A stretch of 64,000 bases of DNA from Methylophaga sp. (GTDB lineage: Bacteria; Pseudomonadota; Gammaproteobacteria; Nitrosococcales; Methylophagaceae), in NCBI GenBank assembly GCA_002733715.2, contig NVWQ02000024.1:1-64000 (forward strand), in the 5' to 3' direction. Within the stretch, counting starts at the first letter, position 1. Every line of letters starts with the position of its first letter. Shown one piece after another: positions 53,803-60,938 of the stretch. The notes below the pieces were generated by a model. The model searched no databases and was not told the DNA's origin. It saw only the letters and a program-made list of their open reading frames with translations. The position numbers and the translations under genes are program-made.

Positions 53803-54057
53803 TTAGCGTGGTGGAAATAATATAGATTTGATAGCTTGATAATTAGTAGCAATATTGCGTAGCTTATCTTCACCTTTCTCTGTGCTAATGAGTCCTTTTG
53901 CTATGTCTTTTACTTGCTCGGCATACATTTTCTTCAATGTATCCAAAGTGGCGTTGATCTCATAAATGGTTGGATTGTCACTATCCTTCCAATCTTGGGG
54001 GAGTGTATGCGGATATTTGGGCTTGAATTGCAGTAAATTATCATTGTTTTCAAACAC
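53803..54057 (-). CDS. Small unknown protein after cbbO
   Basis: 84 residues, soluble. A proline-rich start (FKPKYPHTLPQDWKDSDNP) is followed by two predicted helices (TIYEINATLDTLKKMYAEQV, then KGEDKLRNIATNYQAIKSIL). No domain or catalytic motif is recognised. It lies 12 bases after the cbbO stop on the same strand, so it is probably the last gene of the cbb unit. Confidence 0.65.
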   Translation of the reverse strand: MFENNDNLLQFKPKYPHTLPQDWKDSDNPTIYEINATLDTLKKMYAEQVKDIAKGLISTEKGEDKLRNIATNYQAIKSILFPPR

Positions 54058-54069
54058 TATCTACCCGAC

Positions 54070-56415
54070 TTATGCTGTAAGACTTGCAAATAAAGTGGGC
54101 AATTGTTCCGGTAATTTATCTACATTATCAATAATGGTGTAATTATTGGCACCAAATATTCTTTTCACATAATCATCCGCATTTGGATCTAAGGTTAAAC
54201 AATACGTCAGTACTCCAGTGCTGTAGAGTTCTTCAACTGCTTTTTTCGAATCGTGCCGCAAATGTTGAGGATCGCGTTCATCAATATCAGCAGGCTCACC
54301 ATCGGTGACAAGTAAAACCAATTTACGCCTTTCTGGCTGTCTTAAAAGGTGAGTTCCAGCATGGCGTAAGGCTGCGCCCATACGGGTTGATAATCCCCCT
54401 TTCATGCCCGCAAGACGTGATTTTGCTTCATCATCGAAGTTTTGATTAAAATCTTTAAAACGGTAATATTGAACATCATGACGACCGTCGGATGCAAAGC
54501 CATGAATAGCGTAAGGATCACCGATACCTTCAATGGCGGTGGCTACTAAAGTACAGGCTTCACGTGTCAGTTGTAATACGGTTTTATCAGAACCTTGTAT
54601 TGATTCATTGGTAGACTCTGATAGATCGAGTAGAAGAACCACTGATAGATCACGTGTTTTTAATACATTGCGCATTGTAATGCGAGTATTTGGCTGTTCC
54701 CCCATGCGAATTGCAATCATCGCATCGATAGCGGCATTGAGATCCACTTCATCACCATCTTCCATGTTGCGGACACGTTGAACGCCTTCTGGTGTGAGCA
54801 GATCAATGATCTGTTTGATGCGATGTGCGACGGGTCGATAGGCATCAATAATAGCTTGTATATCTTCGAGATGGCCGCGAGGTTGACGGCGTTCATAAAC
54901 AGTTACCCAGTCAGGGCGATGCAGTTGGATCTGGTAGTCCCATTCTTGGTAATGATATGGATCTGATATGGGTTCCTTGCCCCACATATCATTAAAACTG
55001 ACTTGCTCATCGGTCAGATCGTCTTCATAAGGACGGAAATTTGTTTGGCAAATCCAAATTTCTTGGGCGTCGTCCCCCGCAAGTTCACAATCGACTTCAT
55101 TTGCCATGTCAATAACACTAACGTGTTTTCGTACCTGACGTTGGCTGGCGGGGACATAATCATATTCTGTTTCCCAAGTAAATTCCTCAAATTCCCATAC
55201 ATAGCGATTATCATCGCGGTAAGGAATGTCGATGCGTTCTAGAATACGTAAACTTGGTACTTCCTTGCGGCTGGAAAATAGGTTAAAAACGTCTAGGCCA
55301 AGATGCCAGCAAAAGTTATTGTTATCTTGGTTTTCCTCAATTTCTTGATGAAATTTTGCTGCCAGTGTAGCAAGCCCAGGATCGTTTGAAGTAAAGTTAT
55401 CATCCAACAACATAAGAGAGAAATGCACCAGCAATGGCATGGTTGGATGTTCAGCTTGATTTTCATGATCCGCTTCTTCCATTAAACGGCGCCAAAGATT
55501 TTTCAGCCCTGGGAACTCTTGGATTGCCTTGAACTCGACGCGGGCATCCTCAATTAACCCAATGAAAAAAATCTGCGCGGGGCTTAAACCTTCTGCGGAA
55601 ATGGGTTTACTGGAATAAACCATATGCGATGCCATATGTGCAGCAGTAGCTCGGTAGACTTCTAGTCCAGGGATATCTCCATAGTCATCTAAGGCATCAG
55701 GCAGGTGTAATATACGGTGTTCAATATAAGGGCGAAAGTCTGCAAAATCAGCACCGGTCGGGCGTAAGAAAAAATCTCTTCCCCACAGCGCACGTAAATA
55801 AAAATTTAGCTTGCGTTGCGTTTTGTTAAATAAAATACCACGGCGTTCTTTTTGTAAAACAGCACGGCTATCTGCTGATTCGAGATTAAAATAAGCGGTT
55901 AGATTATTATAATCTCGACGGTAGGCTTGTGAGCCAAAACTAGCCCATCGGCGCAGGCCGCTTAGTGTAAGTTTAGATAATAATTCGTCAATATGATTGA
56001 GCATCGGTCTGACACCACGTGATGCCGTTGATGCAAGTTGATGTATTAACGTCAGATACCCACGAAATAATTCAGCATCACCTAGATTTCGTGCAGCTGT
56101 AGGCATACTACTGAATAATAGTGTAACCACTTCAGCTGAAGTCATCGATGATAATTTCATCGCCGCGGTTAGACAATCACCAATAACATCCTCACCACAC
56201 TCTTTTGCCACAAGTGGCATTTCTTGTAGGTAGGAAATAACGACCCCAGAACCTCGGCCAAGATTACTGAGTGTTTTGGCACCATCCATATATTCTTGCA
56301 GGCCTGTGGGTGACATAACACGTGTTGCTTCTTGAAAAGTGCTTTCTAGTACATCACGGATCTCAGGTGAGGTCTCTGAGAGAAAATCTTCATATTCTTC
56401 TAACTTTATTGACAT
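54070..56415 (-). CDS. cbbO: RuBisCO activase component CbbO
   Basis: 781 residues. CbbO is the adaptor of the CbbQO activase, which removes inhibitory sugar phosphates from form I RuBisCO. The C-terminal von Willebrand A domain carries a metal site DLSES from Asp597 and VTDGEP near 705; the long N-terminal part is typical of the family and contacts CbbQ. Encoded after cbbQ, with a 214-base gap containing a hairpin. Confidence 0.95.
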   Translation of the reverse strand: MSIKLEEYEDFLSETSPEIRDVLESTFQEATRVMSPTGLQEYMDGAKTLSNLGRGSGVVISYLQEMPLVAKECGEDVIGDCLTAAMKLSSMTSAEVVTLLFSSMPTAARNLGDAELFRGYLTLIHQLASTASRGVRPMLNHIDELLSKLTLSGLRRWASFGSQAYRRDYNNLTAYFNLESADSRAVLQKERRGILFNKTQRKLNFYLRALWGRDFFLRPTGADFADFRPYIEHRILHLPDALDDYGDIPGLEVYRATAAHMASHMVYSSKPISAEGLSPAQIFFIGLIEDARVEFKAIQEFPGLKNLWRRLMEEADHENQAEHPTMPLLVHFSLMLLDDNFTSNDPGLATLAAKFHQEIEENQDNNNFCWHLGLDVFNLFSSRKEVPSLRILERIDIPYRDDNRYVWEFEEFTWETEYDYVPASQRQVRKHVSVIDMANEVDCELAGDDAQEIWICQTNFRPYEDDLTDEQVSFNDMWGKEPISDPYHYQEWDYQIQLHRPDWVTVYERRQPRGHLEDIQAIIDAYRPVAHRIKQIIDLLTPEGVQRVRNMEDGDEVDLNAAIDAMIAIRMGEQPNTRITMRNVLKTRDLSVVLLLDLSESTNESIQGSDKTVLQLTREACTLVATAIEGIGDPYAIHGFASDGRHDVQYYRFKDFNQNFDDEAKSRLAGMKGGLSTRMGAALRHAGTHLLRQPERRKLVLLVTDGEPADIDERDPQHLRHDSKKAVEELYSTGVLTYCLTLDPNADDYVKRIFGANNYTIIDNVDKLPEQLPTLFASLTA

Positions 56416-56629: not shown

Positions 56630-57451
56630 TTAGCCAAAAAATGTTTCAACCGCAGCGTTGAGTGTGTCACGCATATCCGGATCATCCGTTAGCGGCGTTA
56701 CCATTGTCATACTACACGCATCTAGTGGGGATACGCCTTTAGCAATTAACTGACCAGAATAAACCAATAAACGGGTAGAAATACCTTCATCCAGACCGTG
56801 ACCTTTTAGGTTACGAGCGCGATGCGCAATATGGACTAGCTTTTCTGCAGTCGCAATATCAACACCTGATTCTTTAGCAACAATATTTATTTCGGTTTTT
56901 TCTTCAGGGTAGTCAAAGTCTAGGCCGCCAAAACGCTGTTTGGTCGACTGTTTTAAATCTTTCATCAAACTTTGGTAGCCTGGGTTATATGAAATAACTA
57001 ATTGGAAATCAGGATGTGCCTGAATTAATTCACCTTTTTTATCTAAAGGCAAACTACGACGGTGATCCGTCAGTGGATGAATAACCACTGTGGTATCTTG
57101 GCGTGCTTCAACTATTTCATCAAGGTAACAGATTGCACCGATCCGTGCTGCGGTAGTCAGCGGACCGTCTTGCCATTTCGTACCATCCTTATCAAGCAGG
57201 AAGCGACCGACCAGATCAGAAGCGGTCATATCTTCATTACAGGCAACGGTAATTAATGGTTTGCCTAATTTCCATGCCATATATTCAACAAAACGTGATT
57301 TACCACAGCCAGTAGGGCCCTTAATCATCATCGGCATACGGACTTCATAGGCCGATTCGTATAAGGCAATTTCTTTATTAACCGGTTCGTAATAAGGTTC
57401 ATCTTTAATTATATATTGTTTAGCATCTACGATATTTTCAGTAACGGACAT
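56630..57451 (-). CDS. cbbQ: RuBisCO activase AAA+ ATPase CbbQ
   Basis: 273 residues, MoxR-type AAA+ protein. Walker A GPTGCGKS at 45-52; Walker B ends in Asp111-Glu112 (ICYLDEIVEA); VISYNPGYQS near 152 is sensor 1. CbbQ forms hexamers which, with CbbO, remodel RuBisCO using ATP. It shares high similarity with the NorQ/CbbQ group; the neighbouring cbbL, cbbS and cbbO assign it to RuBisCO. Confidence 0.96.
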   Translation of the reverse strand: MSVTENIVDAKQYIIKDEPYYEPVNKEIALYESAYEVRMPMMIKGPTGCGKSRFVEYMAWKLGKPLITVACNEDMTASDLVGRFLLDKDGTKWQDGPLTTAARIGAICYLDEIVEARQDTTVVIHPLTDHRRSLPLDKKGELIQAHPDFQLVISYNPGYQSLMKDLKQSTKQRFGGLDFDYPEEKTEINIVAKESGVDIATAEKLVHIAHRARNLKGHGLDEGISTRLLVYSGQLIAKGVSPLDACSMTMVTPLTDDPDMRDTLNAAVETFFG

Positions 57452-57551: not shown

Positions 57552-57863
57552 TTATGGTTCATCATCTGTTTCGGATTCGCCACTCCAACCGACAGCTTTA
57601 GCTTCTACTATGGCTTTATCATGAATGCGTTTATGTTTTTCAAATAATTCGGCAGGTAACTGACTTGCCAAGCAGCCATATTTATCCCATTCAAGATTGA
57701 CCTTATCAAGTAGAGAATCAATGCCTGCGGCATTCCAGCCTTCGCATGTCTCTGATTCTTCAAGTAAACCAAAAACCCAAGCATCACGAATGATCTTGGC
57801 AATAGGTGTCATGCCGCCATTAACTTCATTATTAACTCCTACGTATTTTTGTGGTCGTTTCAT
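57552..57863 (-). CDS. Unknown 103-residue protein between cbbS and cbbQ
   Basis: 103 residues, soluble, acidic at the C-terminus (SGESETDDEP). The N-terminal part reads KYVGVNNEVNGGMTPIAKII and then WVFGLLEESETCEGW, which could form a helical segment with two cysteines in the chain. It lacks any motif I know. It has the strand, spacing and codon use of its cbb neighbours (97 bases after cbbS, 100 before cbbQ), so it is a real gene of the cluster, possibly linked to RuBisCO assembly or activation (inference from position only). Confidence 0.7.
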   Translation of the reverse strand: MKRPQKYVGVNNEVNGGMTPIAKIIRDAWVFGLLEESETCEGWNAAGIDSLLDKVNLEWDKYGCLASQLPAELFEKHKRIHDKAIVEAKAVGWSGESETDDEP

Positions 57864-57887: not shown

Positions 57888-57925
57888 TTAAAAAATGCCC
57901 CTGTCCGACAGGTCGAAGCAGGGGC
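57888..57925 (-). terminator. Terminator or attenuator after cbbS
   Basis: On the minus strand GCCCCTG (57925-57919) and CAGGGGC (57903-57897) form a stem, followed by ATTTTTTAA. It lies about 36 bases past the cbbS stop. It could reduce transcription from the abundant cbbLS message into the unknown gene, cbbQ and cbbO. Confidence 0.75.
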
Positions 57926-57960: not shown

Positions 57961-58320
57961 TTAAACAGAAACGCCGCGGTAAATTACCATTGATGCCCCT
58001 GCTGATTGTGCAAAGTTGTCAAAACCTAACAAACGAACATGGTTGTCTGGGTGCGCTTTATGACAGGCTTCTAGTTCAGCTAGAATCACGTCAATATCGG
58101 TTTCACCAAACAGTGGCAATTTCCACATATACCAGTAGTTGCTAATAGCATGTTCTGGTTCTGTATGTTCAATACCTGGGTTCCAGCCTTTATCAACAAT
58201 GTACTGGATTTGAGCGCGAGTAGACTCTTTGCTCAATGGCGGTAGGTATGAAAAAGTTTCGTATTTACGGCTTACAGCTGCATCGCCTAAGCTTGATTCG
58301 TAATCTTGTACATCACTCAT
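57961..58320 (-). CDS. cbbS: RuBisCO small subunit, form I
   Basis: 119 residues. The family pattern is clear: [20 protein letters not shown], then [24 protein letters not shown] and an end region with [14 protein letters not shown]. It caps the L8S8 hexadecamer. It lies 137 bases after cbbL with a stem-loop in between and has ATTTTGGAGAAATCAC before the ATG. Confidence 0.97.
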
Positions 58321-58457: not shown

Positions 58458-59876
58458 TTACTTATGGGCTACGTCAATCTTGTCAACCGTATCAAATTCA
58501 AATTTGATCTCTTTCCAAGTTTCCATCGCAATCTTAAGTTCTGGGCTATGGGAAGCGGCTTTAGTAAGAATGTCCTTACCTTCTTTCTCAAGCTCAACAC
58601 CTTGGTTACGTGCTTCAACACAAGCTTCAACCGCAACACGGTTAGCAGCAGCACCGGCAGCATTACCCCAAGGGTGACCCAATGTACCACCACCAAACTG
58701 TAATACAGAATCATCACCAAAGATGCTCACTAATGCTGGCATATGCCAAACGTGAATACCGCCCGATGCTACTGGGATAACGCCAGGCATTGAACCCCAA
58801 TCTTGATCGAAGAAGATACCGCGTGAACGATCTTCTTTGATGTATGAATCGCGCATAATGTCGATCCAACCCAATGTTGCTTCACGATCACCTTCTAATT
58901 TACCTACAACGGTACCTGAATGTAAGTGATCACCACCCGACAAACGTAATACTTTAGTTAATACGCGGAAGTGAATACCGTGGTGCGGGTTACGATCAAG
59001 TACTGCATGCATAGCACGATGAATATGTAATAACATACCGTTGTCTTGACACCATTGTGCTAGACCTGTGTTTGCAGTTAAACCACCTGTTAGGTAGTCA
59101 TGCATGATGATGGGTGAGCCAATTTCTTTTGCATATTCAGCACGTTTCATCATTTCGTCAAAAGTAGGTGCTGTAACGTTTAAGTAATGACCTTTACGTT
59201 CACCCGTTTCAGCTTCTGCTTTTACAATTGCTTCTTGTACGAAGTCAAAACGTGCTCTCCAACGCATAAAGGGTTGAGAGTTTACATTTTCATCATCTTT
59301 AGTGAAGTCGAGACCACCACGTAGACCTTCATAACAGGCACGGCCGTAGTTTTTAGCGGACAGACCTAATTTAGGTTTGATGGTACAACCTAACATTGGG
59401 CGACCATATTTGTTCATGATGTCACGTTCTAACGTGATACCTTGAGGTGGACCATTACATGTCATAACGTAAGCAACAGGGAAACGGATATCCTCTAGAC
59501 GAAGAGCACGTAATGCTTTAAATCCAAATACGTTACCAACTAATGAAGTAAGGACGTTTACAACAGAACCTTCTTCGAAAAGGTCAATTGGATAAGCGAT
59601 AAACGCGTAAAAACAAGTATCATCACCGGGTACATCTTCAATTGCGTAACAACGACCTTTGTAGTAGTCAAGGTCAGTTAATAAATCCGTCCATACTGTG
59701 GTCCAAGTACCTGTTGAAGATTCAGCAGCTACCGCAGCAGCAAGCTCTTCACGAGGCACACCTTCTTGAGGTGTGATTTTGAAACAAGCCAAGATATCTG
59801 TTTCTTTAACAGAATAATCTGGCTCCCAATATGTTTCGCGGTAGTCTTTAACGCCCGCGTTATAAGTCTTAGCCAT
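58458..59876 (-). CDS. cbbL: RuBisCO large subunit, form I (green-like, probably IA)
   Basis: 472 residues, starting at the ATG at 59876 after GGAG; a TTG four codons earlier is less likely. It fixes CO2 onto ribulose-1,5-bisphosphate. Lys167 in [11 protein letters not shown] is the catalytic lysine; Lys193 in FTKDDE is the one carbamylated; HRAMHAV near 288 and the loop-6 segment [13 protein letters not shown] near 320 are intact. Sequence style and the accompanying cbbQ and cbbO without carboxysome genes indicate the cytoplasmic IA type (IAq). Confidence 0.97.
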
Positions 59877-59922
59877 GTGTTTCTCCAATGTGTTTTTAAT
59901 TTATAAGTTAATTAAGTCACAA

Positions 59923-60035: not shown

Positions 60036-60938
60036 ATGAATATAACTATACGCCAATTTCAGATATTTGAAATGGTTGCCCAGAATTTAAGCTATACCCG
60101 TGCGGCTGAATTACTCTACCTAAGTCAGCCAGCGGTGTCTATGCAAATAAAACAATTAGAAAGTGAAGTGGAAATGCCTTTATTTGAAAGGCTAGGTAAA
60201 AAATTATTTTTGACTGAAGCGGGTGATGAGTTACTTGTATACGCCCGTAATATTTCACAGCAACTGGTCGAATTGGACGATGTGTTAAATGAAATTCGTG
60301 GTAGTGAGAGAGGGCGTTTAACGATAGCTGTAGCAACAACGGCGAATTATTTTGCCTTAAAATTATTAGGTGAATTTTATAAACGTTTTTCAAGGACTAT
60401 TATTAGTTTTGATGTCACCAACCGTGAAAGTTTATTAAATCATTTAAACGACAATACGGCAGATATGGTGATTATGGGTCAGCCGCCAGAAGGTCTAGAT
60501 GTTGAAGCGACCTATTTCTTGGATAATCCTTTGGTTGTTATTGCACCGAAAGGACATAGATTGGCAAATGAAAAACAGATTCCATTATCAGTTTTGCAGC
60601 AAGAAACTTTCATTATGCGTGAGAACGGTTCAGGTACACGGATTGCTGTGAAACGCTTTTTTGAAGAAAGTGGTTATAGTATTAGCTCGGTTATGGAAAT
60701 GAGTAGTAATGAGGCCATTAATCAGGCCGTTGAGGCTGGGCTAGGATTAGGCATTGTGTCACGGCATACTTTAGAATTAGAATTGGCCTTGGATCGATTA
60801 GAGATTCTAGATATTGAATCATTTCCAATTATGCGTCATTGGTATTTAGTACATCGAAAAGGCAAGCGCTTAACTGCTTTAATGAATGCTTTTAAGCGAT
60901 TAGTGGTAGATGAAGCAGGAACAATATTAAAGGCTTAG
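60036..60938 (+). CDS. cbbR: LysR-type regulator CbbR
   Basis: 300 residues. An N-terminal winged helix-turn-helix (RQFQIFEMVAQNLSYTRAAE, LSQPAVSMQIKQLE, about 6-42) is followed by a LysR substrate domain. It is divergent from cbbL, the standard place of CbbR, which activates the cbb operon in response to Calvin-cycle metabolites or NADPH. Convergent overlap of 12 bases with the next gene. Confidence 0.93.
   Translation: MNITIRQFQIFEMVAQNLSYTRAAELLYLSQPAVSMQIKQLESEVEMPLFERLGKKLFLTEAGDELLVYARNISQQLVELDDVLNEIRGSERGRLTIAVATTANYFALKLLGEFYKRFSRTIISFDVTNRESLLNHLNDNTADMVIMGQPPEGLDVEATYFLDNPLVVIAPKGHRLANEKQIPLSVLQQETFIMRENGSGTRIAVKRFFEESGYSISSVMEMSSNEAINQAVEAGLGLGIVSRHTLELELALDRLEILDIESFPIMRHWYLVHRKGKRLTALMNAFKRLVVDEAGTILKA

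Follow-up and report, generated by a model that had tools for sequence, protein, structure and literature searches.

In the window, that is, the whole stretch of 64,000 nucleotides that was analysed, the genes for form IA RuBisCO and for its activase lie together on the reverse strand. The gene for the large subunit, cbbL (58458..59888; PF00016 and PF02788), which probably begins at the ATG at 59876, is followed by cbbS, encoding the small subunit (57961..58320; PF00101), by a small gene that is called X in what follows (57552..57863), by cbbQ, encoding the AAA+ subunit of the RuBisCO activase (56630..57451; PF07728, AAA_5, and PF08406, CbbQ_C), and by cbbO, encoding the VWA adaptor subunit of the activase (54070..56415; PF00092). 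The divergent gene on the forward strand (60036..60938) codes for a LysR-type regulator, assigned as cbbR on the basis of its LysR domains and of its top NCBIfam model, CbbR, which it matches under that model's cut-off. The window CbbO is 63-85% identical to the CbbO of most syntenic loci, and the window CbbL ends in KIDVAHK, containing the HK motif, which CbbQO recognises and needs at the CbbL C-terminus according to a published study (PMC8718961). A sequence-only reading of the stretch had described a 103-residue open reading frame with no recognised domain between cbbS and cbbQ, on the same strand as both, and this description is confirmed: the ATG of X is at 57863 and its stop at 57552.

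The gap between cbbS and X holds a terminator- or attenuator-like element on the reverse strand (57890..57925), composed of a hairpin (57897-57925; -18.0 kcal/mol, with a z of -2.4 for the fold of the gap) that precedes a U-tract (57890-57895) and has no match in Rfam. A hairpin with a U-tract is present in the cbbS-X gap of 30 of 37 loci, where the stem is kept although the sequences differ, but in only 3 of 111 shuffles and 4 of the 37 gaps between X and cbbQ. Since this conserved element separates cbbS from X, X is placed in the downstream cbbQO unit. The hairpin is probably an attenuator that splits an abundant cbbLS message from the message for X and CbbQO, in which case X would probably be made together with CbbQO and in smaller amounts than RuBisCO.

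It is of note that a second small unknown gene, of 84 aa and with a GTG start, lies immediately after cbbO in the window (53803-54057, reverse strand). Its close homologues are confined to Thioglobus-type genomes (L006 4345-4596, 71%; G706, 67%), the homologue in L006 likewise directly following cbbO, and none was detected in 30 other genomes tested.

Conservation and predicted fold of X

The earlier description of X as conserved-looking was correct. Its nearest relative, found in the same position in the MAG UBA652 (L002), is 87% identical, with a dS of 0.58 and a dN of 0.077 between the two genes (dN/dS ~0.13), while in other pairs dS is high or saturated and dN ranges from 0.06 to 0.17; 16 diverse homologues share the same Met start and the same length, and their alignment contains 21 invariant columns. 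Judged from these sequence comparisons, X is a genuine gene, more than a chance open reading frame, and is under strong purifying selection. The conserved frame across 73 members reads Y-x-G ... G-G-M-T-x-x-G-K-I-I-R-D-A-W-V-F-G-L-I ... E-T-C-E-G-W ... W ... L-P-x-E-L ... G-W, followed by an acidic tail. The conserved polar residues are few, and Cys40 (C40) is nearly invariant but missing in some members, which argues against catalysis.

Searched alone, X had no match among the domains of Pfam and NCBIfam, where the members of the 16-row and of the 73-row alignment, each taken in turn, gave nothing credible either; the same held for the 16 rows in PHROGs. A sequence profile run against the PDB had as its top match a protein entered under the name 'H12' (E 5e-5, over 48 residues in two repeated stretches), which was judged to be a chance helical-repeat match. 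The AlphaFold2 model of X has three helices (20-31, 45-61 and 71-90; pLDDT 85), and that of a distant member has an identical helix order (pLDDT 89.5). Comparison of these two models with the PDB by Foldseek returned no match at E<=0.001, the best Z being 2.4, a result with which a missed shared fold would still be compatible; one of the models had no significant match in BFVD, a set of viral structures. A viral origin was rejected, as X had no match in IMG/VR or in a phage collection, and so was the use of fusions as a clue to the partner: the long open frames upstream of some X copies, judged by eye rather than by domain search, resemble low-complexity read-through of the frame more than a fused domain.

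No name for the family was found in the freely accessible literature, to which the search was limited. One name considered was that of 'CbbN' from a cbbLSQON operon in Nitrosomonas europaea. This identity is not claimed: in G102, an AMO-positive genome, the X copy is unlinked, and none stands after cbbO. The literature on N. europaea describes a four-gene cbbOQSL operon (PMC6967387).

Co-occurrence with form IA RuBisCO and gene order

X was sought by profile search in 369 evenly drawn genomes, whose class, Gammaproteobacteria, is inferred from the sampling, and was present in 112 of them after the removal of one spurious match (G571). Where RuBisCO forms are classed by E-value rather than by tree, with form IA-like CbbL taken as E<1e-240 and the absence of form I as nothing at E<=1e-100, X is found in 100 of the 129 genomes with form IA and in 12 of the 240 others (Fisher p ~3e-49); in the loose sense of such co-occurrence, it is a form IA RuBisCO accessory protein. 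The others include 15 whose top CbbL match falls in the form IC range. Four of these have X, and each of the four encodes a full-length CbbO that is 65-81% identical to that of the window, so that their form IA cluster is probably fragmented in the draft or absent from it; in the 11 with only a form IC-range match and nothing to suggest a form IA cluster, X was never found (0/11). Among genomes with no detected form I, 8 of 225 have X, and most of the eight carry CbbO, CbbL fragments or form II. One of them (G617) has X together with only a form II-like RuBisCO, and two (G442 and G667), both incomplete drafts, have X with no RuBisCO found. X is thus a family of ~100-residue proteins present in about three-quarters of the sampled form IA gammaproteobacterial species. 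Two genomes of the same genus as the window and one of the same family have neither RuBisCO nor X. The family spans at least two classes, being also found in the family f40 of another class of the phylum, by inference probably the Zetaproteobacteria, and X is present on plasmid 1 of Nitrobacter hamburgensis (L018) as well.

X is absent from 29 of the 129 form IA genomes, and its presence is patchy inside genera (for example g252, g280, g283 and g349). It is therefore dispensable, and its absence from about one-fifth of form IA genomes favours a modulator rather than an essential part. The genome-wide tie to form IA RuBisCO would suit a factor for the assembly or stability of the enzyme, with a role like that of acRAF, RbcX or Raf1 and no sequence relationship to them, and the predicted low-level expression behind an attenuator would be appropriate for a chaperone. 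Such a function is nonetheless improbable: the same patchiness within genera speaks against it, and published work on the pure form IA enzymes from A. ferrooxidans and H. neapolitanus, and on their CbbQO complexes made in E. coli, does not mention X in its accessible part (PMC8718961).

The order cbbL-cbbS-X-cbbQ(-cbbO) is found in 26 of the 30 best-scoring loci and in most of the f40 genomes. X also lies between cbbQ and cbbO (L142, L143), after cbbO (L062, L074, L075, L141), convergent to cbbO (L138, L140) and divergent from a carboxysomal cbbL (L090). By hand count, ~53 of 117 copies are within ~5 kb of cbb genes and ~63 within 25 kb, whereas about 0.5% and 2%, respectively, would be expected if copies were placed at random. 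The expectation that homologues would always lie by cbbLSQO fails, however: roughly half of the family shows no linkage to cbb genes, and the neighbours of these copies are mostly housekeeping genes with no common functional theme. In a tree of 118 copies, in which many forks are weak owing to the short protein, the clade of the window is mostly of the cbbS-X-cbbQ type (37 of 49 rows) and two other groups comprise mixed and unlinked copies; the tree requires 26 or more switches between position classes, fewer than with shuffled labels.

In other loci X adjoins DabB (L109 and the N. hamburgensis plasmid) or, within carboxysome clusters, SulP (L004, L069). These neighbours could indicate that X serves the supply or sensing of inorganic carbon, through DAB or SulP bicarbonate uptake or carboxysome function, its link to RuBisCO being indirect. 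This is the most doubtful of the readings considered here, as most linked copies lie in plain cbbLS-X-QO operons that adjoin no transporter or shell genes.

Three further observations concern individual loci. One operon (L060, in G428) contains two different X paralogues in the order cbbLS-X-QO-X'. On the N. hamburgensis plasmid, the DabA-DabB operon for an inorganic-carbon transporter is tandemly duplicated in near identical form, X standing beside one copy. In L108, L114 and L068, decayed cbb operons with only CbbL or CbbO fragments retain an apparently intact X.

RuBisCO or activase as the possible partner of X

The position of X in a putative X-cbbQ-cbbO unit, with the conserved hairpin after cbbS and a short, usually hairpin-free gap before cbbQ, could be that of a dedicated third component or modulator of CbbQO, such as an adaptor on the ring of CbbQ, a brake on its ATPase or a selector of clients. 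Co-variation within 32 operons, being strongest between X and CbbQ (r 0.47, versus 0.23-0.30 for the others, including 0.23 for CbbL and 0.25 for CbbS; bootstrap at least 0.986), speaks for such a role, as does the C-terminal HK or HR, the recognition motif of CbbQO, that all X-linked operon CbbLs possess. In addition, among form IA genomes X is present in 81 of the 96 that have CbbO but in only 19 of the 33 that lack it (odds ratio 4, p 0.003). However, these 19 of the 100 X-positive form IA genomes, most of them near-complete, have no CbbO at E<=1e-60, carboxysomal CbbLs linked to X are devoid of the HK motif, and the CbbQO of both A. ferrooxidans and H. neapolitanus was reconstituted without X (PMC8718961). 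For these reasons, and since X persists beside decayed operons, RuBisCO is ranked first as the partner and the activase second, and we regard a dedicated CbbQO component as rather unlikely. That these published reconstitutions did not need X also makes it likelier to be a modulator than an essential part.

The explanation that we prefer, with a confidence falling just short of even, is that form IA (green-type) RuBisCO has in X a small, soluble accessory protein without catalytic activity, which is made at a lower level behind the attenuator and tunes the enzyme; on the best reading, X is usually made with the activase yet does not depend on it. X would be expressed below the level of RuBisCO, in a presumably sub-stoichiometric amount, from the X-cbbQ-cbbO unit behind the conserved attenuator. 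It would probably bind the RuBisCO holoenzyme or the encounter complex between RuBisCO and CbbQO, and modulate the activity of the enzyme, its activation or its turnover, whereas neither folding nor the activase cycle would strictly require it. This explanation is supported by the fact that X tracks form IA RuBisCO genome-wide and is linked to it repeatedly at several positions, and by the occurrence of X without the activase, its intact state beside decayed cbb operons and the purifying selection acting on it. It is weakened by the 29 form IA genomes that lack X and the half of the family that is unlinked, by the genomes with only a form II-like RuBisCO or with none found, and by the closer co-variation of X with CbbQ than with CbbL or CbbS, which leans towards the activase. 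The proposal of the sequence-only reading, a factor for RuBisCO or the CbbQO machine, holds for the link to RuBisCO, which has strong support from genome co-occurrence and is also backed by repeated linkage to cbb and carboxysome genes at different positions, but not for an obligatory part of CbbQO, X being present in form IA genomes without CbbO.

Comparison with known RuBisCO accessory systems

Sulfur, iron and nitrogen oxidisers owe much of their dark CO2 fixation to form IA RuBisCO, which also serves in efforts to transfer bacterial RuBisCO and carboxysomes to plants. If RuBisCO is the true partner, X would be a missing, unannotated item on the form IA parts list, often located in the activase operon, and its role is directly testable through purified-protein assays that are already working. 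A broader proposal, which we advance only tentatively, is that X founds a new and widespread class of form IA RuBisCO-binding regulators, apart from the known chaperones and the activase, and common to free RuBisCO and that of carboxysomes in a diverse range of autotrophic proteobacteria.

Like X, the proteins RbcX, Raf1 and CP12 are small or dedicated accessories of the CBB cycle. A scan of 73 members against Pfam-A gave no match to RbcX, Raf1, acRAF or CP12, and fold comparison of the X models, which may miss a shared fold, provided no tie to RbcX, Raf1 or CP12; furthermore, CP12 has paired redox cysteines, whereas X has one nearly invariant Cys, C40, which some members lack. A small hypothetical protein has been noted near the CsoCbbQ and DAB genes of Halothiobacillus neapolitanus (PMC4633670) and, like X, is the product of a small unknown gene in an extended carboxysome and activase locus, but the positions differ, the H. 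neapolitanus gene following PII and X preceding DabB in L109. The alpha-carboxysome assembly factor acRAF, which resembles pterin-4a-carbinolamine dehydratase, is likewise small and tied to form IA RuBisCO or carboxysome loci, and occurs in the same clusters as X in L069, L070 and L109; X is unrelated to it in sequence, with no match to PF01329, and is predicted to be all-helical. With regard to the CbbQO activase, formed by the AAA+ protein CbbQ and the VWA protein CbbO, X differs in having no AAA+ (CbbQ_C) or VWA domain in Pfam or NCBIfam, in not always accompanying cbbQ and cbbO, and in not being needed in the published reconstitutions. What X and the activase have in common is the operon, the putatively attenuated transcription unit and form IA RuBisCO as the client.
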